NCBI RefSeq assembly: GCF_003473485.1
Contig: NC_053043.1
Location: 1,560,001-1,624,000 of the forward strand
Direction: 5' to 3'
DNA: 64,000 nucleotides
From: Medicago truncatula
Taxonomy: Eukaryota; Streptophyta; Magnoliopsida; Fabales; Fabaceae
Part shown: piece after piece, positions 2,310 to 39,364 of the stretch
Position numbering within the stretch: position 1 is the first letter of the stretch
How the letters are laid out: every line of letters begins with the position of its first letter
Notes under the pieces: model-generated
The model's input: only the letters and a program-made list of their open reading frames with translations
Told to the model about the DNA's origin: nothing
The model's database searches: none
Made by a program: the position numbers and the translations under genes

Positions 2310-2535
2310 TTGGAAGCCAAATCAGCTGAGGATGGAAATCCATTTCCTATTGGTCCAAAATCTATCCACGATATACCTTAAGATTTCTTGTTTAGATTTC
2401 ATTGTCCTACTTGGCCTTCTATGAAAACCCCTTCAGATTCTCTCACACACTCATAAAATACTCTCTAACTAGTTCAGTTCAATTCCCAAGTGAACTACAA
2501 AACCAGTCTCATTACTCTTTATCTCTAGAAGACAA

Positions 2536-3513
2536 ATGGCAGCTGCAACATCTGGTGCTGTGTTGAATGGTTTGGGATCTTCCTTCTTATCTGGAGGAAA
2601 GAGAAGCCAAACCTTGTTAGCTACTACTGCTATTGGAGCCAAAGTTGGTGTTGCAGCTGGTAGTCCTAAAAGACTTATTGTTGCTGCTGCTGCTTCTGCA
2701 CCAAAGAAGTCATGGATCCCTGGTGTTAGATTTGGTGGAAACCTCGTCGACCCAGAATGGCTCGATGGATCGTAAGTCCACTTACCTCTAGAATTAATTA
2801 TAACTTCGCAATTCATAGCTTATTGTTCAATCCATGTTCATGTTTACTTATAAACATAAATCACTTTATATTCAACTCAGTTTTCACTTGTTATTGCGGC
2901 AGAATAAAACCCACGCTTAGTTTCTTTCTGAATTATGACTTGTTTAATGTTTTTCAATTGTAGACTACCAGGTGACTTTGGTTTTGACCCACTAGGCCTT
3001 GGCAAGGACCCAGCATTTCTGAAATGGTACAGAGAAGCTGAGCTTATTCATGGAAGGTGGGCAATGGCTGCAGTTCTAGGCATCTTTGTTGGTCAAGCAT
3101 GGAGTGGAGTTCCATGGTTTGAGGCTGGAGCTGACCCCAATGCAATTGCTCCATTCTCCTTTGGTACTCTTCTAGGCACTCAGTTGATTCTCATGGGGTG
3201 GGTAGAGAGCAAGAGATGGGTGGATTTCTTCAACCCGGATTCACAGTCAATCGAATGGGCTACTCCATGGTCAAAAACCGCTGAGAACTTCGCTAATGCA
3301 ACCGGAGAACAAGGTTACCCAGGGGGAAAATTCTTTGATCCATTGTCCCTTGCTGGTACCATCGAAAACGGAGTTTACATTCCAGATACAGAGAAGCTAG
3401 AGAGATTGAAACTAGCTGAGATTAAGCATGCTAGGCTTGCTATGTTGGCTATGCTGATTTTCTACTTTGAAGCTGGACAAGGGAAGACCCCCCTTGGTGC
3501 TCTTGGCTTGTAA
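2536..3513 (+). CDS. LHCB6: Chlorophyll a/b-binding protein CP24 (LHCB6), photosystem II minor antenna
   Basis: Two exons, 2536-2771 and 2964-3513, join through a GT-AG intron (phase 2, serine codon split) to 262 codons including stop. The protein is the minor PSII antenna CP24, which binds chlorophylls and xanthophylls and links LHCII trimers to the PSII core in the thylakoid membrane. Residues 1 to about 50 are an Ala/Ser-rich chloroplast transit peptide. The mature start runs through [13 protein letters not shown] and [20 protein letters not shown]. Helix B carries [12 protein letters not shown] and helix C/A carries [16 protein letters not shown], the chlorophyll-ligating E/H/R motifs. 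The length and the [17 protein letters not shown] end fit LHCB6, not another Lhc family. It converges tail-to-tail with FabZ, 457 bp away. The G-box upstream suggests light or clock control. Confidence 0.95.
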
Positions 3514-3970: not shown

Positions 3971-6900
3971 TTAGCCCCCCATGGCCATCAAAAACTCACC
4001 CTCACATACAACTTCACCACCAACATATGCCTTACCATCCATCTTGGCAATTCCAAATCGCTTTTGCAGCTTGGTAAGTGTCATTCTCATGACTAAAGTG
4101 TCCCCTGCAATCACGGGCTTACGAAATCGCACTTTGTCTATTCCGGCAAAGAAGAAGTTTGCACGAGAACCACCGACATCAGGATGCAACATTACCAAAC
4201 CACCAACTTGTGCCATTGCCTGCAGCAAAAGATCTCACGTTCATGCCCGCTTTTAAAGCGCATCATAACATAAACCATATTTCTTTTTTACTCATATGTT
4301 GCTTGCATAGAACAACAGTTATCAAGCTAATCCGCAAACTTTGGAACATCACATACATTGGTCGTTTATATCTACTCCAAAGGTCTTGCGACTTTTGAGA
4401 AATTGGATTCTAGGTAGTATGGTTAATGATCTGTACCATCTTACAAGGAATCGAAGGTTATTGTAAAGTGGTTAATGAAGAAAACAAGACACTAGTTTCA
4501 GATACCAGATATTGAGCTCTTGCTGGCGTTCTTTTCAAATTTAAACACTAGTTTTAGACTCCTAATCCTAATCTATCAAGGAAACAAACCATAAAATATA
4601 AAGAAATATAGAAACCAAATCTTAGAGATGATTTAGGATATTGTAAATTATTAAGGTACATCTCCAACATTATGCGACATCAGTTTGCATATTCAAACAC
4701 TGCTATACAAGCTAAAGCTTACTAACCCTGAATCTTGTTATAACTTATAAATAAAACCTTAAAAAAAATGACAATATAATATGTGCTGCACAAAGCAAGG
4801 CTGGAAAGACAACTCCAGGGTATTGCAGATGTTGGAAAGATGATCATTACTGGAAAGACAACTCAGCAAGATGGTAAGAATGACAACTAGTTTGGATGTT
4901 CTATAACCAAGGAAGAAAAAGATTTGTTTGAATGATCATCAGCAAAAATATTTTGGCAAGCAATATCAATTTACGCACAAAAAGAACTAAAACTTCTTTA
5001 AATTGACCAAGAACAATATTTCAAATATATCACAACGAGAAGCTGGTACAATCATTGTTTATTAATCAGTAACATGGAATGATCATAGTCTAACAGAGAA
5101 AGCAAAAGGCTACTAAAAGGATGTGAATATCAGACCTGTGAGTGTTTACATTGATGGTGGAGAGGGTTGAAAAGCTAGGTAACAACGAAACTTCAGATTA
5201 AAGGTGTGTTTGGTGTCCGACACCAATACGAGACAGACATATGTAATTATATTCAATTACTTCTTTTTCAAATTATTATCGGTGTGGACGTTATTATAAA
5301 GAAAATAAGAGCAGAGTCGTAACCTCAACCATGAGAACACCAGGCATGATAGGTCTTTCAGGAAAATGACCAGGAAAGAAATTGTCATTGATTGTAACAT
5401 TCTTTATAGCAACGGCAGAAACTCCAGGATTGTATTCAATCACTCTATCTACCAATAAAAAAGGAAACCTGAAACAAGAAACAAGGTGAAGAGTTTGCTT
5501 GTTGATTCACAAAACAAAATCACAAATGTCTATTGAGTTGAGTTAGCTTACCTATGAGGCAAAATTTCAAGAATCTGATTGATATCCATGACTTTTGGAA
5601 ATGCAGGATACCCTACATAATATAAACATGGACAAAGTATAATCTTTATCTTTATTATATCTAATCCTAGCAAACATGCTTACCCTAAACCTAATGAAAT
5701 TGGCGGCAACTAATCCAATGTGCTGCACTAAACTAAACCTACTCAACACGCATTGCCAAGCTCATTAACTACCTATTTCAAATTTAAATCCAAATCGGGC
5801 CAATCAATACCGGAAACCACCCCGGGAATAATGAGATTAAGCACGAGAGTGGTCTGATATCTGATATCAAATCTCTTACACATCCATATGTTGGTTTCAA
5901 ACCATGGCAACACATCTTGACCTAAACTTCTTCCCTTTCTCCAGGTACTCAATCGATTAACCTCTTTTGGTCAATTAAGTGTAATTTCTTTGTTTTATTT
6001 TTAATCTTTTTATTTTTTTTTTTATTTTACGATAAAAATATTATGGGTTTGGTTCAGTTTCATTTACATTAACGTTAAAATACTTATTTATTTTGGTAAA
6101 AGATGATTTTGTTGAAGAATTTGGGGTTTGTTCTGGATATTAACAAGTCTGAGTTTGCCTCTGTTTCATTTACATTAACGGTAATTATTATTTTTTCTTT
6201 ACATCAACACTCAATTTTTCACGTGTTAATTAGTTTCATATTTTTCCTCAATTTCATCTAAATGAGTGATTTATTTCAACGTTTATGTTTGTTTTGAACT
6301 TTAAAAGCAATACAAACACCTAATGGCTAATGTATTTCAGAATTGTGAATTTCCCAAAAAGAACAATGGATATGTACATTTTTATGAACAATAAGGTTGT
6401 TTTTAAGATTGGGATAAAAGATCTTATGCTCAATGAAAAACAAGAAAGATTTCCAGATGGTTCTTACTCGAAAAGGATTTACGTGCTATAATTGTTGTGA
6501 TACGGTGTAAGTCTTTATACTTTATCTCTCAGGACCGGTTTTAACTCGTTGGACTTTGTTTTCAGTCTGTTGTCATATTTTAATGCTGCCAAATCACAAC
6601 ATCATAAGGTGCTGCAAGGATCCCATGATAACTTGAAAACAAACAGAGACCGCACCTGGTTTGATTCTGCTAAGCAAAAACGTCAAATCATTGTTTCCAG
6701 TCTCCACTCGATCGTCATCTCAGCCTTGATTCTATCTGTCGACTTTGTCGGTATGCCCCTTTTTTTATTTTACATTGTTTCGGTTCTTCTGTGAGGGTTT
6801 GATAATTGTTATTGCTTCTCAGATATTCATCATATTGTTTTCACACCTTTCTTCAATGATAATTTAGAGTTTTTCTTACTTTCAATGAAAATTGATTTTT

Positions 6901-9900
6901 GTGTGTGTCGCTATAATTTGGTTTGTCAAAACTGTTTTCAAATTCCTAAAACTGCATTTATAATTTTTAGTTTTTAAAGTGGCCAGTTTTGAATTCGAAT
7001 TTTTGCTAAAATCATGTTTTTCCTTTATCTTAGTTTCTTCTTTTAGTTTTAGTTTCGAATTGATGCTTCACTCAATCAGTTAATCTTTTCTGTTCTATTT
7101 TGGTTTCGTTTGTTTGATAAATATTTTGTACTCAACGTTATTTGTTTAAAGCTTTAATGTTTGCACATGACATTTAACATTTCTTTTGCTTTCAGTTGTT
7201 ACTAAAATAGTTTGAATAACTAACTTCACATCTTTTTCAGATGAGAAGTATTGCAGGTAAGTAAGATGTCTCACTGTGCTAGAAGAAATACATTCAACTG
7301 TTTATGTTTAGGTACATAGACAATAATGTGATTGATAATATTGGGTGTGTGTTCTTGAGTTAAATAAACAATAATGTGATTGATAATACTGAGTGTGTGT
7401 TCTTGCCAGCAAACCATTATTTATCCATTGTTATTTGCGATGTTCCGATAACAGTTTACATTTGTCGGCTTATAGCCATATTCTTTTTCTATGCTAAATA
7501 AAAAAAACTGTTTTTGTTTTGTTGTTGATGAGATAAAGCAAATGTAGTAACATGAGTTTTTACAGCTGTCATGTGGTTTTATCAAGTTTCAAATTATTGG
7601 GTTATAAAAAATAGTGCTAATGGAGTTTAAATTATGCAGGATTTCATTTAAGATTCTAACATATAAGATGTTTAGGTTTAAAAAATTCCCTTCTATGAAG
7701 TTTTTCATTAAAAAAAATGCTATTCCTGTTTGATGCTGTGCCAACCCCTTTTATACATTATGAGATGAATTTCCAATTGTCTTATGAGAAGACTCTGACT
7801 TCAGATGAAGTTGATTCTAGCTTTTTTGGTAAGTGAACTATTTTTTTAAATCATTATAATCTTTTTCAATCACCATATATTAAATACTAGTAATTGCCCC
7901 GTGCAACGCACGGGCAAAAAGAGACCGAAGTTGGGTCTTAAAGCATATGTCGATAAGCCATTACCAAAATGAATAACATACGTCGTCATTTTTGTAAAAT
8001 AAAATACATAGTTAATCTATAACAACTAATAAATTAAACCACATCCATTGCCATCACAAATTTATGAATTAGAACTTCATTGGCATATTACAATCATAGA
8101 ATGACTTCAAAAAAACATCAAAAATGAACTGCATAGCCCAATAGCAAACATATATCTCAATATAAGCCCTTCAAGACAATGATTCGCTACGTCATGTTTC
8201 CATCAAAAAACGCTGCAAAATAAAAGGAAAAAACAACTTTCAAAATTATATGCAGTGACTAATGATGATTGAAACCTGACATATGTATAAGATATGCATT
8301 CATACCTTGTAGCAATTCAACCTACAAATTATCAAATACTTCTGGATAAACAACATTGATAGTTGATGTGCAAGGGATACCATCTTCATCCAGGATTAAC
8401 ATTTTCAAACCTTTCTTAGTAGTTACTCTTGACACAGCCACATACAACTGTCCATGTGTGAATACCGGGCGAGGTAAGTATAAACCTACTTTGGACAATG
8501 ATTGGCCTTGACTTTTGTTTATTGTCATAGCAAAGCATAAAGAAACGGGGAATTGCCTTCTTGAGAATTTGAATGGAAACCCTGAATCTGATGGAACCAA
8601 ATCCATCCTTGGGATTAAAACCTTCTGTCCTATACTCTTTCCAGTGATAACAGTGGCAGTAATAATGTTCTTCCCAAGATGGTTGACTTGCAAGCGTGTT
8701 CCATTGCATAAACCATTTGCTTGATCAATGTTTCTTAGAAGCATGATGGGAACTCCAACCTTCAATGTCAGCCGATGGTTCGGTATCCCAGAACATTTGA
8801 CATCATTGAGGAACTCAGTGGTACACCAATCTCCTTGAATATCATAATCCTCATCAGATTTGCAAGGTGTATCAGAACTGAGATAATGTTTCTCTTTGCC
8901 TTCTATCAAGGACAAAACATAGTCATTAACCTGTTCAACACAATCAAGCGTTGGAGCCAAAATTGCCTTTTCTTCAAAAATCCGCTGATTGTCAATGTTG
9001 TTGACAATATTAGGATAAACAAAGTCAATCAATTCTTGCAAAGGGTTATCACATGGAGGAATGCACAGTTCTTCGGGTATATCTATGCGACCTTCTCCAT
9101 CCTCGTCAGCTTCCATCTCACCATTACCAATTTTCAAAATCCAGTTTGCAAAATCTCTAATCTCATTAGCACTTGGACTTGTACCATCATCAACTAACCT
9201 CATGTTCCTTGTGAGCTTCAAAACCTTGCAACTATGCCAAAGAAGAGAAGAGTTGATAGTGGACTTCATTATATCAAATCGATTAGCTTGTCTAATCACA
9301 GGTAATATTTGCCTAAAATCTCCACCCAATACGACAACTTTACCTCCAAATGGTCTGTTCAAGTTTTCCTTATCTACACCTCTCATCAAATCGCGCATGG
9401 TACGATCAAATGCCTCAAAACAAAATCTATGCATCATAGGAGCCTCATCCCATATAAATAAACTCGCTTCTCTTAGCAACTTGGCTCTCAAATCTTGTTG
9501 TTTTATATTGCAAGATGATTTCACATTTATTTGCAGTGGAATACAAAAGGTAGAGTGAGCAGTTTTGCCTCCGGGCAACAATAATGACGCAATGCCGCTA
9601 GATGCAACATTTATTACAATTTTCCCTTGTGATCTTAGAGCTGCAGATAGAGTCTTCCACATGAAGGTCTTCCCAGTTCCACCATAACCATACAAAAAGT
9701 AGAACTGACCATCTTGGGTCTCAACCGATTTCATTATAGTAGAATAAACACTATGCTGCTCATCTGTCAACTTCCCAAGAAGTGATTCATGCAGCTCTCG
9801 GAGCTTGTCTTTGTCATAGTTCAATTCATCTGCAATGAATCTGTTTTCCATCTTTAAAACCTCTTCGAGAATCGGATACGGTAGAGATTTATAATCCTTC

Positions 9901-12900
9901 AAAGACTTTCCATTGTATCTCAACAACTTCTCTAACTCAATTAAGCAAAGATTCTTCAAAACAGAATCAGATATTTGAAGATCTGCACAATTTATTTATT
10001 ACGAAAGTCATTGGATGTCATTTGATTATAATTCAACAATATCAGTTACCAAGAATAAAATACCACCATAATTTACGTAAGTGTTATATACTTCGTTTCC
10101 AATATGATATACGTATAAGTATTATAAGGTGTTACTACTATTTGTTCTGGTTTACGCATAACTTAGTAAGAGAATAACACAAAACATGTGGGTGCACCCT
10201 AATTTTTTGGTTTTAATGTGAATTAAGAAAACATGATGGCATAAAACAGTTAGAATATTTAGCAGGTTCTACTTAAGTGTAAAATGCATATAGAATTATC
10301 AAGTTTGAGACAAAAAAAGAATTATTAAGTTTAAACCTGGAATATCCAACTTCCTTCGTCTTGCATATAGAATTCCATCAGCCAACATTTTCCAAGTTGC
10401 ATCCCACACCTTATCAAGCTTGTGCATAGTGCTCATGTTCAAAAGTCTGACAAACAAAACCCGAAGCATATGCCCACTCTCTGTTCTATATGCTTCTAAA
10501 ATTCCATCAATGAATTCTTTGTCATCCGACAACAAACCAATAGCATAACAGGCGTCTTGGAACGTATCATAAAGCTTACCGTTGACAGTTTTGATACAAT
10601 CATACCCCATGCAACTCTTCTGGATCGTCAATAAGATGCGCATATAATACAGTTCACCTGAACCGACTGGAATGTATGAGAGCCTACCAATTTGAAAACC
10701 ATTTTTCCTGGGATGCCATACCCTTTTTGTTGGAAAGTAAGTGAATTTTGAAGGGTATTCCGCATATGTCAAATCCCTTCCATCTGCATACAACTGATTT
10801 GCAGCAAACCAAGCAAGAAACATTGTTGGTACTGATTGATGATAGTCAACCACTTTGTTAAGGTTTTGTGTTTCCTTGAACCTAACACTTTGCTGACCTT
10901 CCAAATGCAAAGATAATCTCATGACAGGAGGCCATTTTTGATGAATATCGAACATGAAAATTCTCCATGTAGCTTCACATGGGGATACATAACGACAATC
11001 ATAATACCTCTTGATTTCATCTAACTGTGCTGGATCTTCTTTGTCGCCCGATTTGTTTTTTATCTGTAGGTTTGCTCTATCGGGACCTTTGTTCACATAC
11101 TTGAACAAATACTTAATTGCATTTGATTTGTTGCAATATTCTGTGTTAACATGACCTTGGTATCGCATCAATAGTGTTGGATTATACGGGACAACATACC
11201 TATTATCCAAAGGAACTCCATTCTTCATGACGGACAAACCACTGTCCACTCTTTTATACACAGGAAAGCCATCCTCATCTATGGTGGTTGAGGACAAAAA
11301 CTTCTTTGGGAAGTATTTGGAGCATCTTGGTCCTTTCATGCAAGGTGAACCTGAATTTGCCTTTCCACATGGACCATGCATCATAAATGTAGAAACGGCC
11401 AAATGCAACTTTGGGTATAAGTCTGGGTGTGGTATTTCCGCTGATATGACCTTGTCGATGTCCTTAGTCGTGTGGATTTTGTTTGACCCTTCTAACCACA
11501 ACAAAATGTGTGCATGTGGAAGCCCCCTCTTTTGAAACTCAACAGTGTACATCCCTGGAAAAAATATATATAAGTGGATTAAGTTCAAAATATGTCATTG
11601 ATTCAATTAAAATACCCACACTAATTATAAAATTTTCTACATTATACAAAGCAAACCAAAAATGTACCTGCAGTTACTTTCCCAAACATTTCATTTTTTT
11701 TGAAGTCAGTCATCATCTGATCAAGTTTCATCTTAAACACTCGGGAAATAATATCTGGCCTGTCTGAAACACTAAGACCCTTTTCTCCAACAAAATTCTT
11801 AATTTCACTCCAACTTGAGTTGCACGTAAATGTAATGAAGAGATCCGGGTATCCAAATCTCTTACAAATTGCCATGGCATCTTGGCAATTATTAAACATA
11901 TACCTTGGTGAACCTGTGAAAGAATCTGGCAGGATAACACGCTGTCCAGCATTACGGGGGTCTGTATCTCCACTTTCAACTGCTTCTTGTAGTCCGTTCA
12001 AAAGATCTGATCGAATGTTCCCTTGATTGTTTCTTATGAAAGAAAGCCTTTGTGCTTCAATCATTGTGTAACAATCAACAGAAAACTGTTGGAGAAGTCT
12101 TCTACTGTACATAATGTTTCCAAATTCACACTCCCTTTCTTGAATCCTAAAGGCTATAAATTCCCGAATAGCAACTCTTTCCTTTGATCCTCTATTCTTT
12201 TCTTCATCTTCCCACTCTCTATAAGGGATGTCCTCCTCGTAACCATTTTCACCGCGAGGAAATACTAAGGGATACTGAAGTGGCATGTATAGTGGATGTG
12301 TCTCATGTAACCTTCTTAAACCTTTGCTCACATCATCAACTATAATATCTCTTCCTTGTTCGGATAGATCATAATCACCGACTATCAATCCTGCAACTTC
12401 ATCCACAGTTGGTAAATTATGCATCCTTGAATCTTTTTCCCTCTTGCGAAACAACCTTAAAGCCATCTTTGGAGGTGATCCTTTGTCAACCAAGTCACGA
12501 ATCTTTCTAAAGGATTTGCATAGAGGGTTACATTGATCCAACATTTGTTTAAGATCCTCCACTAATGAAAGATCAAAACCTCCCTCACCACCTTCACTCC
12601 TGGAAGTAGTGCGAAAATGAGTAAATTAATAATGTTACCATTTATAATAAATTTTACACAGTCTTTATTAATGTTATCTAAATAGGAAACAAAAATAAAT
12701 ACTTACTCAAAAACCCTTGTTCTATTTTGGACTTCATTTTGGGTGTCATATATGTATAACTGCGCAAACTTTGGAGTAGTACCGGGCTCAGGCAAGAGAC
12801 TACCAATTCTATGGTAATTTTGTCCACTCAATATGAATTGCGGCGGACCATTTCCATTGTTTAACTTAGAAAAAACCTTGCCTCCTAGTGATGTAAATGC

Positions 12901-15900
12901 AAACATACTGTTGTACGCCCTTATATTCTGTTGGTAGTGCTTACTTCTAGGTTCAGTCCCATTGAGCAGTGATACCAACAGTTTAGGTGTTTCTTCTAAG
13001 AGAGGAATATCAACAAACCCTTTTTGACAACAGATGGAGAACTCAGTGCTATCATTCGGTGGTCTAGACTTTTCTGCCCTTTCCTCTATCCAAACTTGAG
13101 CCTTGCACCATTTACACTGGATTTCTGGATAGCCCAAATCCAAGCATCCTGTCGAAAGTGTGAACAATAATTATAGGTCATATATCCATGTGCATTACAA
13201 ATGATAGATTAGGCCAACAGTACGTACAAATGAACTATATACTGAACTAAATAGTATAGGATTATTATGTAAACCTGTGATCTCAGCATCAACGTAGATA
13301 GAAGCTCTAAATTCATCCAAATTTCGAATGTTTTGATTGACCCCTGTTAAAAATTTCGATGAAAACTAAGAAGTTGTAGCTATCTATTAAAGTGTATTAT
13401 GTAGGGAAACTTAATAAAACCTCACCTCCGAATGATGTCTGCTCTCTTGGGACGACATCTTGGAGCAACGAATCGAAATCCAAATGTGCCACAGGAAGTT
13501 GATTGTATTTCCTTTTCCTTCCAATTCTGGTCTTTTGTGCCTTCTTAACGGTGTTTGTTACTTGTGATGCCACATCTGCTAATTCACATGTGAGGTCAAT
13601 GGAAACATATAATGGGCTGAATTAATAATTATTCTTATTTAACACTTTCGGTGAAAATTAATGTACAAAGGAATCGAACAACTTTAGAATATTTGACATA
13701 CTTGAGGACTGTACCGACACACCGTTGGAAATTGTTGATAATGGAGTCCTATTCTTTCCTCCCACTTTAGAGGAACCTTCCCTTGATATATTGCTCACTG
13801 TAGGGTTAGTTAATGTTGATGCACCTGTCGAAAAAGTCGTAAATTTATTGATATTGTGAAACTAAACATTGGATCTACGGAATACTTAATTAGAATACCA
13901 TTACTATACTGAAAATGTTCTAACCTGATGCAAATGATGTTTGAGAAGGAAGGGTTGGTGATTGGAACAGCCTAACATCGCTTGAATTTAATCCATTGAT
14001 ATTCCTCGACGTCAAGCATGATTTATTTGAATCTATATTGTAATATAATGTTCAATATTGTATAAGTGATAAATTATTTAATACTAAAAAAATTATTAAT
14101 AAATTAACAAAAAAAATTAACTGATGTTGTTGGTTAACAAAGTTAGACTATCACCAGTAGTAAGATGTGAAAAGGGAATCCTTGATGACTCAGTACAACT
14201 CTTTCTCTTCCTATATCTTAAAGCAAAATCTAGATCTTCATTCTCTGCATAATATTTGAACAAACTTTGTGATCTTTATAGAATGAATTGTAAGAACTAC
14301 AACTAATGTATAAGCAATTACATAAAAAATATAGTTTAAGCTAATGATATGTTCTACATAATATTAAGTACCTTTATCCCTTTGCTTTTCATTGCTTCCT
14401 CTATTCAACTTAGCATGTTTTCTCTTCAATCTGGCCATTTTTGCATCTTGTGGATCCATTGTTGGTTGGCTTCAGGAAGATTACTTTGGCTGCAATTAAT
14501 TTAGTTTCACATGATGGTAGTCTGTTGTTGAAATCTCTAAGGAAAAAGAAACTAAGGGAAAGTGCATGTCATGCGTGTAGGAATACCCACAACATTACAA
14601 AATATGGGGAAAGGCAAACTATCTTGTGTCTTAATCATATAAGTCTTGATTCCCATATTTACACCAAATTAGAAAAATAGGACATCTGACTTGGCTTTAT
14701 GCATAAATTAATTTGGAATAAAGCTTGCAATATCATTTTCATAAAGTGGGGACATTAGGAATTTTGCATTAGAGGACAAATTACATATATCAATGTGTAA
14801 GCCCTTTTATAAAAAGGTATAGCAGGTGTGTGCTTTATTTTCCATGACATAGAGTCAATAGAATCAAATTAAAATATGATCCCCCAAAAAATTAAGATGA
14901 GTATAATGAATAAAATATGATCCAAAATTTTAATGGTGATGAGACTCAAAAATTTCATCTATAACTATTGCCAAACCATTATATACTACTTGTTACAGAA
15001 CAACAACAACAGTCAATAAATATTAACAGTCAATAAATATTTCCATTAGTCAAAATATATCTTTTCATTAACAGTTAATAAATATAATTAAGTTTACATC
15101 AGAATTCAGAATAGAATTGAATGGTAATGAATAATATTGAAGCAGTAAAATTAAGTTTATACATCACAAAGAGACATTCTTATTAATACTACTAAATCCT
15201 ACTAAACATAGTAATGTATACATTTTGACTTTCATATAAATACATCATTAAAACTAATTAAGCTGAATATTGAGTTATTATAGGCAATCGCTTTCCTTAG
15301 GACACCCTTTTCACACTTCAAGTTTCTGTCTTCATTCCATCCAGATATCTCTCTTTGCATCCAATCATACACGCAACCAATAAAACCTGTGGAAAAAAAC
15401 ATAAATTGTAAGTTATTTGCATTTTGCTATAAGTTTAATATAAGCAGTATTAATCTCAATTAATGATATCAAAAAAAAAAAAAACTGTAAATGAGACATG
15501 ATTACCTTGTTTAGTTGACATACACAGGACAGTTAAAAAAAACACAAAATATCTCACTTGAATATATCAGAACAAACACAAAATCTTAACATAATGAAAT
15601 TAGATTACTTAATAATGTGCTCAGATCAACATATTACAGATCTGATAAGGTAGCAAAATAAACTGATAAACAACAAATCAGTCATAAACTTAGCACCAAA
15701 ATATTACAGTTCTCAAAACAAATTATACAAATTGAGCTCATATGAGACTGACATTTATAATAGTAAATAAGTTCATTAATTAAAGACATAATTAAATAGA
15801 ATCCCAATAGGTGCATTTTAAGGCTTTTCAATCTTGATAGTTTTCCTCAACATCTTGAGAGACATGTTCATCTCATCATCATCCGTAGTGGGAGATCCCC

Positions 15901-18900
15901 TCTTGCTAGATGCAGCAGAACCTTTCTGACTTATCTCAACCACATCAAACTCACAATCTGCAACTGCAAACTTAGGCAGAAGATCCTGCAAAGATTTCAA
16001 AATTATGAGTTTTAAAATTCTAGACTCCATAAATCTAATTAGGGCCTCAGATTTACATAGTGTTCTTCTGACCTGTGTGACAATGCCAGAACCCTCCCCC
16101 AACAGCATTTCCTTGCACTTCTCAACAGGTTCAGTCAATGAAAAATCATCCTACAAAATAATATCACAATATTTTAAGTAAGTTTTACTCACCATATTGA
16201 AGAGAAAAATAGACAACACTCAAACAATAAACACAACTACATTATACTACTCCATACTTGATTCAACACATCAGAAGAGCCAGCAATCATGGGAGCTTTC
16301 CCCTTGTCCAACAAAACACTTAAGGAAGATGCTTCCTACATAATATTAGCATGGCCACCATTACTCTTAAGGTTAAAAAAACATAAATGTTTTAAAACCA
16401 CCAAAATGCTATCTATGTCCAATATATAACAGCAAAGTATTCATACCATGGCGTTTTTGAAGAAGGCAGCTTCTTCTTCACCCCATTTCTTCTTGAACTC
16501 ATTGATAACATCCGGCATGGCACAAATCTTCCTCACCCTGAATGATTGCTCAAATCTGGGGTTTTGATCAACTTTGGTCTCTACCTTGAAGAGGAAAGTT
16601 TTGCCAATGATTCCAGCAATTTCAGGTGGTAGATGACCTTCAGAAACAGCCTATACATTCAAAACTCATGTATCAGTGAATCCTTTAAGTGTGCTGGTCA
16701 TAAAAATACAAAGAAACACTCTATTCATCCAATGACTTACCACTCCATGTTCAGCTAGCATGTCAACACAGCTCTTGTTAAAAAGTGCAGTTGCTTCTTT
16801 GTCAAAAATTACTAAGGTAGCACAATCTGTATGATCAATTGCTCTCACCCTCAAACAGTACCTAGTACAGTTATAAAACATTCAGTTAATTTATAGTGTG
16901 TATAAGGTCTTGGGTCAAACACATAAACTTTAACTAAGAGTTATAGAGTAAAGTAGATCACCTAGAGAATACTTTCTTCACATGCCTATCACACTTCTCA
17001 CAATAGAACATTTGAGAATCAGGGATGACAGCCTTAGAGCATATACATGCAGTATACCAAAAATTTTCCCTATTAACTATTCTCTTAATGGTTCCAAGCA
17101 CAACATAAACTTCATTCTGTCATATAAATAAGCACAAAGTAAGTAATCATGATTTAATGGTAAAATTGTGCCTATTAACAATAAAAAAAAAAAAGCACAA
17201 CACTCACTGTGGTAGCATCTTTGAGCCCCTGCATAGTGTTCCTGGGTGTTCCATACAAAAACTCTTCTCTAGGGTCAAGTTTTGCTTCTGGTTGCAGCTG
17301 GGTTAAACCAAGTGGGGATGGGGTATCAACAGTCTCACTCAGCCTAAAAAAACTTAAAAATAAATGTCAAACAAACTACTACATTTCAGTTTTACATGAA
17401 ATCCCAAATAGATTACAAAATACTAAAGTTATACCTATTCCTCATGCTAACAGCAGCATCACATGTAGGCTTGAAAATAACTTTGGTGCAACCAATACAG
17501 TTCTGAACATGTATTTTATCTAAAGGAATATATAGGAATTAATTAAGTAGACTTTTCACAAAGTAAAGAAAGGACACAATATAAGAGGGTGGCAAGTTAT
17601 GAATAGTCCTAACCTTGGAAGCTTTTTGCTTTGGCAAGTTGGATGATCACAATCGCATTTGGGATATCTCCACTTGCTATAAAGCTGTTGAGATCATCTA
17701 CATAACTTCCAAACAAAGTACATTGGATCTTGAACCTGTTTCAAACATAATCAGATTAAATAAGAACCAATAATGTATAAACTAATAAAGAAAGAAATCA
17801 AGCAGTTGAAAAAAACATTGTCTTACCCTCCAGCCTCAAGTTCAATGACATTGAGCTTTGTCATATTTCCATTCCTCTCAAGTTCCCTCTCACTTCCAAC
17901 ACCAGTCAAGACACCAATGATGTCTAAAACAATTGTAAAAATAATACAGAGTTAAATAGACAACTATTAACAATAAAAACTATTGGACTATTGAAAAATA
18001 ACAAAAAAAATCGAAAGGGAAATAGAAAACTACCAACTAAGTAATCAGTGTCATAGGTTCCTCCAATAACTTCAGAGATTGGAACCAACTGATAAGGTGA
18101 CTTAGTGATTGTAAGGGCAGGGAGGTATTTAACCTTTGAACTAAACTGAAAGTTCAACTTGTAGGTGTGCTTAGTGGTTCTATAACCACCACCATTGTTG
18201 GCAACACCCATATTTTCAAAACTAAAGCATTTTCCTTCAAAGAGATCATTCCTAAACTTGTAAATCAGAGTCTTCTTGAGTGAGGCATGTATCCTATCAC
18301 CAGCCTCATCAAGAATGACCATTTCAATGGAAAAAGGCATCCTATTTCCATTGAAATCAGACACTTGCCAAAGCCTAATGATTTTACCCTTCAAGTTCCA
18401 AAAAGTTTTTTCAGTGCAAATCTCAGAAATTGCTGAAAAATCAGATGTGTTAGACATCTTTTTTTTTTTTTTCTTGAATGAGAAATGTATGTTTTTGATT
18501 TTTTTTTTTTCAAACAGTTAAAATGTAAATGCAAGATTGTAAACTAAAAGAGGGGAGCAAAGAATTGCAATGTCAACACAAAGAAATTCTGGGGTGACTT
18601 TTCCTTCACCCAAAACACCTCTTTTATAGGTGATTGCTAGGGTTTGAGTTTGGATTAAAAAAGATTAAATTTTAGGGTTCAATGTGGAGGGAAAATTTCG
18701 AATTAAACAGTGAATTATTTTTACCTTGTGAGATGAAATTAACCTTGATCTTATCCTCACAGCACCTCCACCAATTCGAAAATCGCAAAGATTCGTCCAC
18801 TTTGTAGACTGAAACACGTTGATTTGCAACCCTTTGTATGGAAACTGTGGTGTTTGTGACGCCATCGACGGTGACTGGTGGTTGTAATTTAACAATCAAA

Positions 18901-21303
18901 GAGGAAAGAAGTTCTGGTTTAATCTGATATGGTGATTAAGGGTTTTGTACCATAGCTGATTTGCTTTATCATTTTGGTGTTCTTGTTTGAAATCTCCAGC
19001 GGCAGACCAGGAAAAGCATCACTCTTTTTAGGTTAAGCAATTAATGTCTCTGAAAAGGAGAAGAGGGTTGAGTATTGGGCTGGACTACCAACTGGGCCTG
19101 GGTTTTAATTTGTTTTGTTTGTTACTTAATATGTGGTCCGAAAATGAGGTTTGATGGCTGGAAATCCAGCAATTCAAAATTTATATAATCAAAATGAATA
19201 AAAATGAGAATTTTTAATTTCAAATGTAGTTTTCTGATCCACATTGCTAATTTTGATCATTTTTTGTACTTGAACATTTTGCTGATTTGGCATTAGGGGG
19301 TTGAGAGATTGACACCTTGGATTAGGATGCCAAAAAATGTAGCTCACTTGTATATTATTAAGATCCATTTTATTTTTTGTAAACCCTTACTTAACAAGGG
19401 TTTTGTCAAATGGGATTGGACTGAAGAACTACTTTGTTGAAGTGTTGATGAATGTGGCAACATGTGGGATTGCACACTTTGTAAGATGTCGATATCTTCA
19501 ATTTAAGATTAGTGGTGGGTGGAACCGAATGGTTAAGGTGCGAAGGATTCATTAAACCATTTTTTTTTACCATTGCTTGCTTTTAGGAAGTATGAGATGT
19601 AGTTTTGGGGCATTGACTTATGGCAATCATTTTTAAATTAGACTCTTTTTAAAAGGTATTTGTACCACCTATTTTGGTTTAATCTTTTGTTCTGAGATGT
19701 AGTGAGCTTAAGCAGCCACTAAATATTGAATTAATGTTCAGTTCTGCTTTGTAATGAGCTTAAATAGACACTAAGTGAGTTTAGTGTGTTTCACTCATAT
19801 CACCTAAGTGTTACAGTTTGATTAACATTGAACTCATTTTGTAATGTGCTATGTTATGGTTGTTGATTTTCTACATTACTCTGTCATTGTTCTTATTTTG
19901 TCTACTCAATTGTCTGATGTGTTATAAATTTATGTTTAAAGTTTGAAACAAAAAATGAGAATTATCTATGATTATGCATGGTTCAATGATCATCAGTATC
20001 AGGTGCAAGCATCTACATATACATTCCGAAATGAAATGGGTATTTTAACAAATTTTAAGATAGATCATAATGATAAATGAACGTATCTTTAAGTTTTTAT
20101 TATGGCTTGAATTGTAGCATATTTTGAAAATTCAAAATAAGATGACAATTTACTCATGATACACTATATTTTTTGTTTACAACATAGGTTTGTATAGCAG
20201 ACACGCACATCACAATTTACAAAGCTAATTAAAATTTATATCATCAGCCTAAAATATATGTCATGAAAACGGAGACAGTTATATCATCGGTCTAAAAATA
20301 TGTCATGAAAATGGAGTCAGTTTCTTACACATGTATGTTTTGCAATGATTATTAACAAAAGTTAAGGACAATCACTTAAAAAAAGAAGTTGGCATATATC
20401 TTCTTAAATCAATGTTCACACACAGTCAATTGTATGTTGTGATATCAAAAATTTTGTTAATTGATAAATATAGTGTTTGCATTGATAATACTTCAAATGT
20501 AGTATATAAAGAAGTTTTCCGAAATGTGTAATTATAAAAAGAGAAATGTTTCAAGTGCCAATTTGGATGGGTTAATTTAGACCAATAAAAGAAGCATGAA
20601 CGTTCTTGGTGAAGGTTGAGTGTTGAGAATTGAAAAGTTAAAATAAATAAAAATAATAAAATATAAAGTAAATCGTTACAAAGTGGAACAGGTAACAGGT
20701 AATGAAACAAAAAATGTGGGTGAGGTGGATCATTTTTATTGGTATGTGTTAGAAGGATGTGTTAGAGAGTGTGACCCAAACATTTCTCTTATAAAAATGA
20801 TATCACATCGTCATTGTTACCATGACATTCTTATTGTTAGTTGCGTTTGTTTGTTATAATTTTGAAGTTATTTATTATTATTCAATGTATATGACCAGTG
20901 CGGTAGCACGAATAGACGATCTAGTGTTGTCAATTCTCGTAAAGTTTGTAGCACCAACACTTCTAATTAAATGTTTGTCAGACATCATCGACACATAATT
21001 ACATTCAACTATGTTTTTTCTCAAATTACATGTGTCCGTGTCTATTCTGCATATGGCATAAATAAATAAATAAATAAGTGGTAATGAAAGAGACATACTT
21101 AATTCAATGGGAGTAGTGAGTTGTTGAGGAGAAGCATTAGCTGCGGCGCCATCGGAGGAACAAAAAGTGGTGGTTAGTGGTGGTTGTTTGAAATGGGATC
21201 TTGGGAAATTGATGATGAGTGGAAGACAATTGGGTTTTGAAGGAGAATGATGAGAAATTGGAGAAAGAAATAATGTGTTGGAGAAAGTAGTAGAGGCTGC
21301 CAT
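3971..21303 (-). CDS. FabZ: Plastid 3-hydroxyacyl-ACP dehydratase FabZ, with a 15.5-kb first intron
   Basis: Four exons: 21303-21099, 5612-5552, 5468-5324 and 4219-3971 (205, 61, 145 and 249 nt). They total 660 nt, which is 219 residues plus stop, the usual length for plant FabZ. The enzyme dehydrates 3-hydroxyacyl-ACP to trans-2-enoyl-ACP in plastid fatty-acid synthesis. Residues 1 to about 55 are a transit peptide; the mature part has [42 protein letters not shown] (catalytic His about 123 and Glu about 137) and [15 protein letters not shown]. All junctions are GT-AG; exon 1 ends ..GAATTAA before GTATGT and exon 2 starts GGTATCC, which restores the expected IELRYPAF. Intron 1 (21098-5613, 15,486 bp) contains a whole Helitron in the same orientation. 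The exon 1 assignment rests on phase, homology and length; a transcript would settle it. Confidence 0.88.
5200..5300. repeat. Copy of a tgtccgacacc-type dispersed repeat in FabZ intron 3
   Basis: The phrase ggtgtccgacaccaatacga is followed by acatatgtaattatattcaa and tcggtgtgg. Related copies with the same order of phrases (cgacaca, taattacattcaac, tgtgtccgtgtc) occur at about 20970-21050 and 21515-21640. The family is not identified. It probably inserts as a short nonautonomous element. Confidence 0.4.
5613..7700. other. FabZ intron 1, 3' part, before the Helitron
   Basis: AT-rich intronic DNA. An open stretch near 6549-6794 on the plus strand (containing [13 protein letters not shown] and [14 protein letters not shown]) is not a family I recognise; it may be an exon of the decayed plus-strand gene described at 7700. 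A 48-bp imperfect tandem pair (caataatgtgattgataata) lies at 7321-7356 and 7369-7404. Nothing else is supported. Confidence 0.4.
7700..7832 (+). pseudogene. Exon-like relic of a plus-strand gene (B3/RPA-like family), left of the Helitron
   Basis: The plus strand reads [14 protein letters not shown], then [18 protein letters not shown] and FFG, then a good donor (G|GTAAGT at about 7830). The counterpart lies beyond the Helitron at about 19399-19560. From memory this resembles legume proteins that combine RPA-like and B3-like domains; that family call is inference. No complete frame survives, so it is a relic inside FabZ intron 1, on the opposite strand. Confidence 0.4.
7887..7915 (-). other. 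Helitron 3' terminus: hairpin and CTAG
   Basis: The plus strand shows ctag at 7887-7890, a 7-nt spacer, then cccgtgc-aac-gcacggg at 7898-7914, which folds into a 7-bp stem with a 3-nt loop. Helitron transposases recognise such a hairpin just inside CTRR as the transfer terminator. The flanking base at 7886 is A on plus, T on minus, as required. Confidence 0.9.
8322..14459 (-). CDS. Helitron RepHel transposase (HUH-Y2 replication initiator fused to PIF1 helicase)
   Basis: Ten exons: 14459-14372, 14244-14155, 14032-13925, 13824-13702, 13578-13426, 13343-13275, 13148-12707, 12599-11668, 11554-10337, 9982-8322. They sum to 4884 nt, 1627 residues plus stop, with every junction GT-AG and every phase matching. 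The N-terminus is basic ([13 protein letters not shown]). The Helitron-like N domain spans exons 7-8. The HUH motif is [10 protein letters not shown] (His about 682 and 684), and the two catalytic tyrosines are in [11 protein letters not shown] (about 817 and 821). The C-terminal PIF1/RecD-like helicase has Walker A GYGGTGKT (about 1173-1180), Walker [26 protein letters not shown] and YVAVSRV. It would nick, unwind and transfer the Helitron strand by rolling-circle transposition. I see no stop or frameshift, which is unusual for a plant Helitron. Confidence 0.92.
14460..15817. other. Helitron spacer between RPA and RepHel
   Basis: About 1.36 kb of AT-rich DNA between the RPA stop and the RepHel start, both genes on the minus strand. 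It must contain the RepHel promoter and the RPA 3' end. The only open stretch (14441-14680, plus) is not recognisable. No repeat pair was found. Confidence 0.5.
15818..18457 (-). CDS. RPA70-like single-strand DNA-binding protein carried by the Helitron
   Basis: Eleven exons: 18457-18034, 17923-17827, 17735-17614, 17519-17435, 17343-17208, 17116-16962, 16861-16741, 16650-16447, 16335-16258, 16150-16073, 15985-15818. They total 1668 nt (555 residues plus stop), all GT-AG and in phase. It resembles the large subunit of replication protein A: an N-terminal OB fold of the DUF223 type ([20 protein letters not shown]), a second OB fold ([18 protein letters not shown]), and a C-terminal OB fold with a CxC..CxxC zinc ribbon (Cys about 312, 314, 327 and 330, in [10 protein letters not shown] and FYCEKCDRH). 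The end is acidic then basic ([14 protein letters not shown]). Plant Helitrons often carry RPA genes, presumably to coat displaced single strands. It lies upstream of RepHel in the same orientation. Confidence 0.88.
19364..21098. other. FabZ intron 1, 5' part, beyond the Helitron
   Basis: AT-rich intronic DNA. It holds the second relic exon (about 19399-19560), a 43-bp imperfect tandem pair starting at 20238 and 20281 (atatcatc..tcatgaaaa), a copy of the tgtgtccgtgtc repeat near 20970-21050, and an (AAAT)n tract. The 94-codon open frame at 20426-20710 has no recognisable features. Confidence 0.45.
19399..19560 (+). pseudogene. Second exon of the decayed plus-strand gene split by the Helitron
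   Basis: After an AG at 19397-19398 the plus strand reads KGFVKWDWT. After a frame change it continues [29 protein letters not shown] and [11 protein letters not shown]. The order (FFG, WDWT, NYF.E.L, ISGGW) is what I would expect downstream of the exon at 7700-7832, with a B3-like C-terminal part. A frameshift and a stop soon after mark it as decayed. The family assignment is tentative. Confidence 0.4.
21099..21303 (-). other. FabZ: FabZ exon 1 (transit-peptide exon), distant from the rest of the gene
   Basis: Starts with [19 protein letters not shown] and continues as a Ser/Thr/Pro-rich, acid-poor plastid transit peptide, ending ..TTPIEL and one base of an arginine codon at the donor AA|GTATGT. 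The next 3' FabZ sequence is exon 2 at 5612. In the single-locus reading, everything from 21098 to 5613 is intron. Downstream in the intron, a (AAAT)n microsatellite lies at 21058-21076. Confidence 0.85.
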
Positions 21304-21514
21304 TGAATTGATATTGATGCTGATGCTTGTAATCTTTCCTCTTCTAATTATACTTAACACTGTTAACAATGAGTTAAGTGTTGCAACATAAACGATGCGG
21401 TAACAACCAACAACATCTACCAGTTTCACACTTTCATTTCAGTTAGGGCGGATCCTCCAACGTTGTTGTTTCTGTTCAACTATTCAACCATGATGAAAAA
21501 TTACTTTCAGATTA

Positions 21515-23895: not shown

Positions 23896-24760
23896 ATAGA
23901 TAAATTATTTCCTTTTAAAGAGTGTCGACCCAAATGGCAAGCAATTCAAGCAAGGACTTTAACCTTCAAATTTTGGGTAAAATAATGGGCGTTCAAAAAT
24001 AATTTCGTTATAAATTTATAATATATTAGATAATTTATCGACATTACATAGCTTAATTGATTATGAAAAAAGTCTCATATACTCTTGATCATAGATTCAA
24101 ATCCTGGTCAACACCTTAGTCAATACAAAATCAATTTTTTTTAATGTCTTTTTATAAGTACTTGGTTAAAAAAAAAAATTAAAAGGCCTAAATAAAAAAT
24201 TTCTTTAAGCTTATCAATCTATGGATAATCCAAACAAGCGCCCTTACGACATTGTTTAAGCATCAAAAGTAGCAACTTTTACCTTGACTTTTACATGTGT
24301 TTAACTTGTATTTTCAAGACAAAATTTCTCCTTGTACATTTCTTAAACAATGTCTTTAGGGCATTTGTTACCAAGAACCTCTATCTATTAGGCCGGCCCT
24401 GTTTTAAAGGCAACATCTTTTGTATAAAACAACTAAAATTGCACTAAGAATGAAGCTTTTTCTATCAAAATAAATTATAAGACAAATATAAGGAGGAAAG
24501 GAAGAACAAATTCATAATTCTTGCGATCAATATATGATGATTTATAAAAAAAAAATGATGATTTAATCTAGCAAAATGTATAAAAAGGCGCTACATCCTT
24601 ATTTTTATTGTTCAATCAACATAAATTGAGGTACAATTTAAGAGTATTATTCTCATCACTAAATAGTTTTTTTTTTCTTCTTCTTTCGAGTAGATGTTGC
24701 ATGTGTTACATAACAACTTTTCAATTATAAGGAAAACATTCTGAAGACGCCTCCTTAATC
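23896..24760. other. Intergenic space before the Pro-rich gene
   Basis: AT-rich DNA with no open frame of note. Around 24050-24130 there is a decayed phrase (gattcaaatcctggtcaa) of the B-box-like repeat type seen at 1925. The last 100 bp are likely 3' untranslated region of the minus-strand Pro-rich gene. Confidence 0.45.
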
Positions 24761-25297
24761 CTACATGGAGGCAATTGGAGGAGAGTTCCCACCTATTGGA
24801 GGAACAATTGGAGGAATGACCCCGCCTACTGGAGGAACAATCGGAGGAATGATCCCGCCTACTGGAGGAACAATCGGAGGAATGGCCCCGCCTACTGGAA
24901 GAGTGTTCCCGCCTATTGGAGGAAGAATCGGAGGAATGATTCGGCCTACTGGAGGAACAATCGGAGGAATGACCCCGCCTACTGGAGGAACAATTGGAGG
25001 AATGACCCCACCTACTGGAGGAACAATTGGAGGAATGACCCCACCTACTGGAGGAACAATAGGAGGAATGATCCCGCCTACTGGAGGAACAATCGGAGGA
25101 ATGACCCCGCCTATTGGAGGAATGATCCCACCTACTGGAGGAAAAATCGGAGGAATGACTGGAGGAATAATCGGAGGAATGAGCCCACCTACTGGAGGAA
25201 CAATCGGAGGAAGAATTTGACCACTTGTGAACTGCAAAGCAACAAAAATAATTAATAACATTGGAATTGAGAAAGCAATTTTGGAGATTGAAACCAT
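24761..25297 (-). CDS. Small secreted Pro/Gly-repeat protein (PPIVPPVGG repeats)
   Basis: One exon, 178 residues. The N-terminus MVSISKIAFSIPMLLIIFVA is a signal peptide, cleaved probably after FTSG. The rest is about a dozen copies of an 11-residue unit close to PPVGGVIPPIV, with a few shortened units, and it ends in NSPPIASM. The DNA unit is 33 bp (aggaacaatcggaggaatga), a coding minisatellite. There are no Cys or Tyr residues in the repeat, so it is unlike extensins. I infer an apoplast or cell-wall structural protein. A TATA element (CTATATATAA, 25367-25358 on minus) lies about 60 bp upstream of the start. Long open frames on the other strand and in another frame (24765-25220 plus, 24612-25340 minus) arise because the 33-bp unit has no stop in those frames. 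Confidence 0.75.
   Translation of the reverse strand: MVSISKIAFSIPMLLIIFVALQFTSGQILPPIVPPVGGLIPPIIPPVIPPIFPPVGGIIPPIGGVIPPIVPPVGGIIPPIVPPVGGVIPPIVPPVGGVIPPIVPPVGGVIPPIVPPVGRIIPPILPPIGGNTLPVGGAIPPIVPPVGGIIPPIVPPVGGVIPPIVPPIGGNSPPIASM
24770..25215. repeat. 33-bp coding tandem repeat
   Basis: Imperfect tandem units of 33 bp (plus-strand phase actggaggaacaatcggagg then aatgaccccgcct), with several 18- to 24-bp short units near 25100-25190. Unit-to-unit differences are few (c/t and a/g), suggesting recent turnover by slippage or unequal exchange. Confidence 0.8.
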
Positions 25298-25439
25298 CTT
25301 CCTTGAGAAATTGAGAAATGATATATTTGTATTGAAACATATATGATCTACTTCTTGTTATATATAGCGACGAACATGATGAAGAAGAATATTTTTTCCA
25401 TTAAAAATTACAAATATTAATTAGTTTTTTTTCTTCATA

Positions 25440-27075: not shown

Positions 27076-28026
27076 GGAAAAAGATATATAAACACACCAA
27101 TGTCATACACCCTCTCATACCACTCTTGATGTGGCATCATTTGAGTTGCTGGAAATTGATTTTAATTTAATTTAAAAATAAAAGAAAACAAAAGTAAATT
27201 AAAATGAAAATGAGTTATGATACACGTACCAACATATGTGGCACACCTCTTCTATACACCCTTTATGTAGCATTTTTTATTAATTAAATTGGGGGTAATT
27301 TTGTCCAACAACAGAAAATAGGGGTAATTTTGTAATAGACACAAACATGTCACTTCTCCCTTCTGCTCCCTTTTCTTCTCTGCTGACTTCTCCTCCGCCA
27401 CCATCCACCTCCACCGACACTTTCCGGTGACGACGATTTCGATGATGGAGAAGCTGAAGATGCAACGAGGACGGAACCAAATAACAACCACTCTCTCTTT
27501 CTCCCGTTACAACGTTTTTTCACTATTTATGGCGTCAAAACAATCAGATTTGCGTCACCATCCCATCGTCGACATCAAACACTCATATATGCTCCACCAC
27601 ACCAACTTCGACGTCAAAACACGGCCCACCGTCGTCACTCGTCGTCCTTCAAAAACACTTAGATCTACCACAATGGTTTTGATGGTGGTGTTTTAGAGGT
27701 GACAACAATGACAAAAAAAAAACAGAGACGGTGGAGAGAGGGTGGTTGGAATAAGGTCGGAGGACAGTAGAGGTGGCGGAAGTGTGAGTGGAAGAAAGAA
27801 GAGAGAGAGAAAGAGAAAGAAATGATGGGAGGGGGGCTGGAATTAGAACGGAAAAGAGAAAATGCAGGGAAGGACTTATTAATTTTTCATTGGAAAAAGA
27901 TATATAAACACACCAATGTCATACACCCTCTCATACCACTCTTGATGTGGCATCATTTGAGTTGCTAGAAATTGATTTTAATTTAATTTAAAAATAAAAG
28001 AAAACAAAAGTAAATTAAAATGAAAA
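27076..28026. repeat. Pair of 135-bp direct repeats flanking 681 bp
   Basis: The block 27076-27210 recurs at 27892-28026 with one mismatch seen (ttgctggaa versus ttgctagaa). Both start ggaaaaagatatataaacac and end agtaaattaaaatgaaaa. The block does not begin TG and end CA, and no primer-binding site follows the left copy, so it is not an obvious LTR element. A segmental duplication or an unclassified element is more likely. The 681 bp between them contain short meaningless open frames on both strands. Confidence 0.75.
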
Positions 28027-33151: not shown

Positions 33152-33400
33152 TGCCGTATTCAAAAGTATCTAAAAATCGGAATATTGTAATTTGATGATT
33201 TTGGATTTTTCTTTTTTGAAATTCGATTTGAATTTTGGATTTTTTTAAAAATCGGACCAAACCGCATATATAAATGAAAATATATTCATTTTCAACATAT
33301 TTCGTATGAACAAGAAAACAAACAAAAGACTACAAATATTATACACTTCAATGGCAAACATGCCAACAGTACAAACTAATCAATAAAACCACATATGCAT
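33152..33400. other. 3' flank of the intact peroxidase
   Basis: AT-rich 3' untranslated and flanking DNA. The part nearest the gene (about 33310-33400) matches the 3' flank of the inverted copy at 42982-43075. Confidence 0.5.
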
Positions 33401-34778: not shown

Positions 34779-34938
34779 TTATATGATATTTTTGTAAAGG
34801 ATTGCAAGAAGAGTTAAGCTTAATTATATGAATGGAATATATGTAGCTGTTTAAGACTTTAGGTGCATATAAAGAGTTTGTATGTAATGATTTTATTGTA
34901 GTGAAATGCAATATGCAATGCCATGCATGCTGTGCAGG

Positions 34939-34946
34939 TATTTATA
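34939..34946 (-). promoter_or_regulatory. TATA box of the intact peroxidase
   Basis: TATAAATA on the minus strand in the context CCATATAAATAC, conserved at the matching place before the pseudogene copy (40490-40497). Confidence 0.65.
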
Positions 34947-35438
34947 TGGAAAGGTTTGGACTTTTAGGGTCAAAAAGAAGAGAAATAGTAAACAAAGACT
35001 GCTGATATAGATACAAATTACTACAAGTGGTGTTGTGGGTGGAGGGCATGTATATAAATGATTTTTGGATATAATGGGCTGGGGTGGCCCTCTTAATTTG
35101 TCTTGAGGTGATTATATATGCATGCTAGCTAAAATACAATTAGTTTCCGCGTGAGACTTTTGGGGATGAATGTGTGTGTATGTATGAATGTCAAAAGTGC
35201 GGTATACTTTATCTTATAGTGACTTGAATGTGTCTAATCAAACGATACTTTGTTTGCCTAAAGATAATTGGATGAATGGGATAATATGATTGTAAGATAA
35301 TGGAATTTTTGCGTTTCTCATTCATCCGAATAGAATATATATAACTGTTGTGTAACGTTTGGTCAACTATTTAATTATGATACAATATAATTAAGGGAAA
35401 TAATTATAGCTAATTATGACAATATTTTATTATATCCC
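34947..35438. other. Upstream region of the intact peroxidase
   Basis: Promoter-proximal and intergenic DNA, AT-rich, no open frame of note. It lacks convincing cis elements beyond the TATA box. Confidence 0.4.
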
Positions 35439-37440: not shown

Positions 37441-37960
37441 TATGTATTATTTTTACATATTCACCTTTACAAAAAAAAAAAAAAATTAGTTTTGTCAAAA
37501 AAATATATTTTTTTTAGTTGTCTTATGCATTATTTTTTTGGTTGTCTCTACTATATTCACCCTTACAATTATTGATATTGATATCGTATGAATGTGAGAG
37601 AGAGAGAGTTTTTGTTTTTTAATGGTAAATTGAATAGGGGTATTCTTATAAGAAAAATACGTGTGAAACTTAAAGAAAAAAATATTATATCAAGGAACAA
37701 AGAAAAAGTGAAAAATGATCTTATAAATGTTATTAACGGTAACCAAGAGTATTACAAGAATTAGAGGCTTGCAATTAACAGAGAGTATAGAGAAATAATT
37801 TTGAAACTTTTTCCAACTGATAAAAAGATTTCATTCGAGATTAGAATTAAGACATATATTCGATCCCCAAAAAAAATTAAGCTAACTCAACCACTTCTAA
37901 CAAAGATCCGAGTTCAAATTCCACCGTCAATGTGAAGATCATATATGTAAATAATACGTA
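37441..37960. other. AT-rich spacer between copia relic and CACTA-like element
   Basis: T- and A-runs and a short GA microsatellite (about 37592-37606); no recognisable feature. Confidence 0.4.
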
Positions 37961-37964
37961 AGAA

Positions 37965-39328: not shown

Positions 39329-39364
<36 letters not shown>

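Follow-up and report, generated by a model that had tools for sequence, protein, structure and literature searches.

The question raised by a 64,000-nucleotide stretch of the Medicago truncatula genome (contig NC_053043.1, positions 1,560,001 to 1,624,000, the whole of which is called here the window) is whether the 11.5-kb Helitron inserted in the first intron of its FabZ gene has moved recently and whether it could still move by itself. The element contains two open genes, one for an RPA-like protein and, downstream of it, one for RepHel, an HUH nuclease with two tyrosines joined to a PIF1-type helicase. Very probably this is a canonical RPA- and RepHel-bearing plant Helitron whose family has transposed recently in this lineage and whose RPA segment makes it a mosaic; it is only possibly still autonomous. 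The coordinates of all features are collected in Table 1.

The element reads from the TC at 19363 to the CTAG at 7887, borders that the first-pass annotation of this DNA had placed exactly to the base. Both ends are of the canonical 5' TC and 3' CTRR types and are the same in a second copy found elsewhere in the genome. The flanking bases, read at both copies, are A and T, the insertion lying between them without target-site duplication as is canonical for Helitrons. The borders find independent support in a comparison of window positions 5000-21500 with the stretch of contig C8 that holds the second copy, in which nothing but 7874-19364 gives an alignment (E <= 1e-10). The 3' end has a GC-rich hairpin, GCCCGTGCGTTGCACGGGGC, followed by 9 nt, a spacing slightly shorter than the 10-15 bp given for Helitrons in published descriptions. 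Folded as DNA it reaches -12.3 kcal/mol, where shuffled sequences average -5.3 (z -4.0, equalled by 0/200 shuffles), and with up to three mismatches its pattern occurs once in the window (expected 0.00). Folding and direct reading of the terminus bear out the earlier description of the hairpin and CTAG as textbook. A scan of the window for 3'-end motifs gave three matches, at 7887 (-), 42451 (+) and 21507 (-), and the last two were discounted as Helitron ends, 12 one-strand Markov sequences having given five hits in all. No close relatives were confirmed in the viral and prokaryotic contig sets, as expected of a plant element.

Both gene models were rebuilt and the exon joins of the first-pass annotation were recovered exactly. 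All 19 introns (10 in RPA and 9 in RepHel) are GT-AG and each frame has a single, terminal stop; RepHel exon 5, as we read the sequence, could use either of two in-frame acceptors separated by 3 nt (13578 or 13575). The catalytic motifs previously claimed (HUH, the two tyrosines, Walker A/B and those of PIF1) are all present in the rebuilt RepHel, with PHAH at residue 681, KYLFKY at 816, GGTGKT at 1175, WDEA at 1252, GGDFRQ at 1294 and YVAVSR at 1588. The protein has the canonical arrangement of a Rep domain fused to a PIF1-type superfamily 1 helicase, with Pfam matches to PIF1 (E 2.6e-89), Helitron_like_N (1e-59) and Pif1_2B (3.8e-23), and its residues 179-1623 match the bat Helitron Helraiser (PDB 7lcc) with an E-value of 2.8e-263. 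Counting positions along the printed alignments, Helraiser H593, H595, Y727, Y731, K1068 (which is Q in the deposited 7lcc mutant) and R1457 pair with H682, H684, Y817, Y821, K1179 and R1593 here. Mutation of these six Helraiser residues is reported to abolish transposition, although the first tyrosine is reported as dispensable for cleavage in vitro (PMC4778049). The spacing of 133 between the second histidine and the first tyrosine is that of the active wheat element Feng8 (H769/Y902; PMC13286980). The RPA protein matches DUF223 (E 2.4e-19) and Rep_fac-A_C (1.3e-15), and such an RPA1-like gene inside the element is what characterizes RPA-bearing plant Helitrons (PHRPA). The zinc ribbon of its C-terminal domain (16741-17116, protein residues ~305-345) has a C-x-C, and the aligned 4gnx chain spaces these cysteines by more residues. 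Heat-shock elements like those of Feng8 were sought in the promoter, with 0 sites for GAANNTTC and 1 site for TTCNNGAA, and we make no case for them.

In the established model of Helitron transposition, RepHel would nick at the 5' TC, peel off one strand and halt at the 3' hairpin and CTAG, while the RPA-like protein would coat the single strand; a circle would be formed and then inserted between an A and a T. We infer this mechanism, the role of RPA and any self-driven movement of the element.

A search of the source genome (430 Mb, 42 contigs) for near-identical copies, one of the checks proposed with the first-pass annotation, found one other full copy, at C8:36248518-36259995 (11,478 bp). 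It differs from the window copy by nine substitutions and three one-base indels (99.89% identity) and encodes an identical RPA protein. Over 15.9 kb of C8 compared, the flanks of the two copies are unrelated except for 13 AT-rich bases after the 3' end. Because a near-identical copy exists at an unrelated site, the family must have transposed recently. Nine substitutions in ~11.47 kb amount to 0.08% divergence and, if plants are taken to gain 6.5e-9 to 1.5e-8 substitutions per site each year, the two copies would have separated very roughly 25,000-60,000 years ago. Under assumed indel rates, neutral frames this long are expected to break (95% level) within ~0.25-0.5% divergence.

The RPA part of the element has a different history. 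Two further elements, one partly deleted at C2:29007121-29017959 (10,839 bp) and one truncated at C8:37.56 Mb, are 94-99% alike in their aligned pieces and are treated here as family B, the window element being family A. Between the families the RPA segment, introns included, is only 3.6% diverged (122/3382 against the C8:37.56 Mb copy), with 50/1654 differences in exons (3.0%), 35/962 in introns and the 5' stretch (3.6%) and 37/766 in the spacer (4.8%); against the C2 copy the divergence is 1.6-4.4% per 250 bp. Outside it, the 5' part differs by 38-44% per 250 bp, near the alignment limit, and RepHel exons 8-10 by 20% (747/3730 against the C2 copy). In these exons four-fold sites, taken from local alignments and restricted to codons identical at their first two positions, differ in 189/366 cases (52%) and codon positions 1 and 2 in 250/2486 (10%), so RepHel seems to have been under long-term purifying selection, which suggests that it was kept functional in both lineages for long. 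The difference between the four-fold sites and the non-coding sites of the segment (72/1728) gives a Fisher P of ~1e-103 when sites are treated as independent. At the left break, by the RPA ATG, divergence drops from 23-51% to 0-8% (per 50 bp), and at the right break, 15038, it climbs from 0-20% to 33-80% (per 25 bp). In the window element, as at C8:37.56 Mb, the left break adjoins A-rich runs, and a string search did not find that spot in the C2 copy; the right one lies inside a 17-bp tandem repeat. Since the segment is common to family B far more recently than RepHel, the simplest reading is that RPA, with its introns and ~0.8 kb downstream, was exchanged or captured between Helitron families.

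The same region is exhausted in CpG (Table 1). The poor stretch spans the RPA exons, introns and spacer, none of the 22 RPA arginine codons being CGN; parts of the RepHel half have observed/expected ratios (O/E) of 0.34-0.91, and the lowest value among other 3.9-kb windows is 0.34. The family B segment is also CpG-poor (O/E 0.12). The stretch passes the right break of the exchanged segment by ~1 kb, so the exchange alone fails to explain the poverty, and because the two halves of the element differ the CpG content is unusable as a sign of silencing for the element as a whole.

Several other explanations have to be weighed. The very high identity of the C8 copy is what a segmental duplication or an assembly duplicate would give, but such an origin is extremely unlikely: the similarity stops at the element, with unrelated sequence directly beyond both ends (by which segmental duplication was rejected), both copies sit at A|T sites, and a simple assembly duplicate would hardly show 12 differences. 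Domestication of RPA and RepHel as host genes would fit the intact frames and the location inside a host gene, yet complete transposon ends flank the two genes and a 99.9% identical copy exists elsewhere, and we give it next to no credence. As to the mosaic, the RPA segment might merely look young for having evolved slowly, by selection or through a shortage of mutable CpG sites, and indeed little CpG is left in it in either family (O/E 0.08 and 0.12). This was judged unlikely from the introns with the 5' stretch and the spacer, which are nearly as similar as the exons; furthermore, the non-CpG divergence of the segment is still 4-9% against 18-21%, and the breaks are sharp. Also against slow evolution, two more distant elements (C4:12.35 Mb, C3:25.63 Mb) have similar DNA identity in RPA (69%, one 191-base piece each) and RepHel (68-73%), their RPA pieces keeping just 33-71% protein identity.

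A harder alternative is that the window copy, recent as it is, is already defective, inserted by means of a source RepHel now lost, silenced or located elsewhere, and cannot move by itself. We put this only slightly below an even chance. Several observations weigh against our own reading, and most of them favour this one. The RepHel of the C8 twin is frameshifted by a one-base insertion in exon 10. When the substitutions were polarised with the C2 relative, seven of the nine could be assigned, five as derived in the window copy and two in the C8 copy; three of those five are missense (RepHel codons 982, 1048 and 1437, where twin and C2 relative agree otherwise), so that an open frame need not be a functional one. 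All three are G-to-A or C-to-T on the coding strand of the element, the type expected of methylated DNA. Just two copies were found within three mismatches at either end, and therefore the activity of the family is low or new. Finally, on the side of the mosaic, some blastn similarity begins ahead of the RPA ATG, at element position 605, leaving the left break less clean than the right. Against a defective copy stand the six Helraiser-tested residues, which are intact, and the frames and splice sites, all of them open. The possibly autonomous and active element first proposed is thus upheld as to its complete frames and the recent movement of its family, but not as to present autonomy, given the frameshifted twin and the derived missense changes.

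Dependants of the element were sought through its ends. Each terminal 30-mer, with up to three mismatches, occurs only in the two full copies (5' control pattern 0), although such genome counts may fall short of the true number. With 513 bp of the 3' part as query, nine matches came up, the two full copies and seven partial ones, and six of these seven loci were examined over 13.5-14.5 kb each. For those at C4, C5, C6 and C8:15.3 Mb the likeness to the window element lies chiefly in the last 44 residues of RepHel, with a frame change at C6 and C8:15.3 Mb and a second, more distant piece at C4; the C3 locus has a short C-terminal piece only and no comparable 3' end was found there, and C2:29.0 Mb is the longer damaged element of family B. 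Over the last 30 bases C4, C5 and C8 agree with the window element in 27/31 columns and C6 and C2 in 26/31, which passes a loose 80% rule. The C4, C5 and C8 ends are actually one base away from that of the C2 element. Two of these loci contain shorter elements with TC and CTAG ends (~3.9 kb at C8 and ~6.2 kb at C4), which over their first 30 bases agree with the window element in 23/33 columns. Having kept just the tail of RepHel, and with 3' ends one base from that of family B, they probably belong to a sister family as non-autonomous elements. Five more partial matches (71-86%) came from a 500-bp query taken at the 5' end, the best of them (C8:6749148) alike in 26/30 of the first bases. Hence, of the short elements sharing the last 30 bp that the first-pass annotation had proposed to look for, none was found within three mismatches, and the looser 27/31 ends at the loci examined are closer to family B. 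Neither the terminal 30-mers nor the 3' and 5' queries of the genome revealed close dependants of the window family. The element may cross-mobilise other Helitron families.

Table 1 Coordinates of the Helitron, its genes and related features (window positions unless a contig is given)
Feature	Position	Strand	Description
Whole Helitron	7887..19363	minus	11,477 bp, TC...CTAG; ends read directly, same borders in second copy
5' terminus	19334..19363	minus	left terminal 30 bp, begins TCTTAATAATATACAAG
3' hairpin	7896..7915	minus	GCCCGTGC-GTT-GCACGGGGC; likely termination signal, by analogy with Helraiser (PMC4778049)
3' end	7887..7890	minus	CTAG, direct reading
RPA-like gene	15818..18457	minus	11 exons, 1668 nt, 555 aa; DUF223, Rep_fac-A_C; REPA_OB_2 below cutoff
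RepHel gene, downstream of RPA	8322..14459	minus	10 exons, 4884 nt, 1627 aa; Helitron_like_N, PIF1, Pif1_2B
RPA segment common to second Helitron family	15038..18463	minus	left break between ~18513 and 18463, near RPA ATG; right ~15038
CpG-exhausted stretch	14023..18683	.	8 CG observed, 122 expected, O/E 0.07; best-scoring segment of scan
Shorter element	C8:15309661-15313582		~3.9 kb, TC...CTAG, RepHel tail only
Shorter element	C4		~6.2 kb, TC...CTAG, RepHel tail only
Host FabZ gene (beta-hydroxyacyl-ACP dehydratase)	3971..21303	minus	exons 21303-21099, 5612-5552, 5468-5324, 4219-3971; 219 aa
FabZ intron 1	5613..21098	minus	15,486 bp, holds whole Helitron
Dead remnant of another Helitron	20318..20924	plus	same FabZ intron, strand opposite to intact element; C-terminal helicase match

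Plant Helitrons that have moved lately and keep both genes open are, to our knowledge, few. Helraiser, unlike the window element, is a reconstructed animal element and is not known to contain introns or RPA. The RepHel core nevertheless aligns with that of Helraiser/Helibat1, with the six tested residues, the TC and CTAG ends and a hairpin in common (PMC4778049). Closer likenesses are found among plants. The Mothra sister family of rice and the PHRPA-bearing plant Helitrons (elements of 8-15.5 kb) are judged putatively autonomous and have an RPA-like gene beside RepHel, and copies polymorphic between rice species are a sign of recent activity; Mothra has TC and CTAG ends with a 3' hairpin (PMC4683698). 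Unlike these elements as described there, the family studied here has two copies, no non-autonomous offspring within three mismatches at the ends and an RPA segment exchanged between families. The wheat Xuan-Feng element Feng8 is similar in its canonical ends, AT target and introns, with a RepHel of 1676 aa in seven exons instead of ten, and RPA is unmentioned in the available text (PMC13286980). Its activity was proved by genetics, circles, new insertions and reconstitution, and an assay in Arabidopsis is reported for it (PMC13286980). Rep/helicase and RPA are also combined in maize ZmhelA1 and ZmhelB1/B2 and in an Ipomoea tricolor Helitron that is likewise ~11.5 kb long and inside a gene (PMC3288121, PMC6591975). 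The maize elements are putatively autonomous (PMC3288121), and the ZmhelB types have RPA after the helicase in one open reading frame, in contrast to the two separate open genes, RPA first, of the window copy. Counts made in Brassicaceae class 1.6-18.49% of Helitrons as autonomous (PMC6591975). The kind is therefore already known from rice, maize and wheat, and what is new is this element, its recent movement and the RPA exchange. In the available text of the literature, including PMC4683698 and PMC5148889, no account of families of Helitrons exchanging RPA came to light, which does not prove that none exists.

The exchange bears on an open question, the role of RPA in plant Helitrons and the way it spreads. 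We would tentatively entertain, while leaning somewhat against it, that plant Helitron RPA is in general a movable segment whose passage from family to family is tied neither to RepHel nor to the element ends. If so, RPA would be a non-specific helper, its relatedness would say little about which RepHel moves which element, and RPA and RepHel trees should disagree. With its twin, its exact borders and just two copies in all, the element lends itself to clean tests.

The host FabZ gene has an intact frame on the same strand as the Helitron, in four exons with GT-AG introns throughout. Its product has a FabA domain (PF07977, E 1.1e-35), its best structure matches are solved beta-hydroxyacyl-ACP dehydratases, and the peptide encoded by the first exon resembles a plastid transit peptide. 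FabZ is thus a natural case of a gene that has to splice out an 11.5-kb transposon with its own genes in sense. The same intron holds what appears to be the dead remnant of another Helitron, an identification that rests mainly on its likeness to a helicase (E 2.5e-9 when the flanks were searched, 1.9e-7 in another search). The first-pass annotation had noted neither the FabZ intron, nor this remnant, nor the mosaic structure of the intact element. The helicase fragment (20318-20528) has a stop and a frame change and is followed by a short hairpin and a CTAG ending at 20924. The stem is only 4 bp and not significant by folding (z -0.8); the 3'-end scan of the window did not pick it up, and the pattern for this end was drawn up after the end had been seen.

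FabZ has as neighbour a chlorophyll a/b-binding protein gene (2494-3513 (+), PF00504), which looks like Lhcb6/CP24. Elsewhere in the window, 33-bp tandem repeats at 24739-25191 encode a proline/glycine/isoleucine-rich repeat protein (minus-strand frame 24761-25357), and 135-nt direct repeats, 99% alike and 816 bp apart, lie at 27076-27210 and 27892-28026. A large inverted duplication at 33368-43014 has peroxidase genes in both arms, with one 557-nt arm stretch 99% alike and others 89-98%. A 117-bp unit is duplicated in tandem at 54203-54438 (97% alike).
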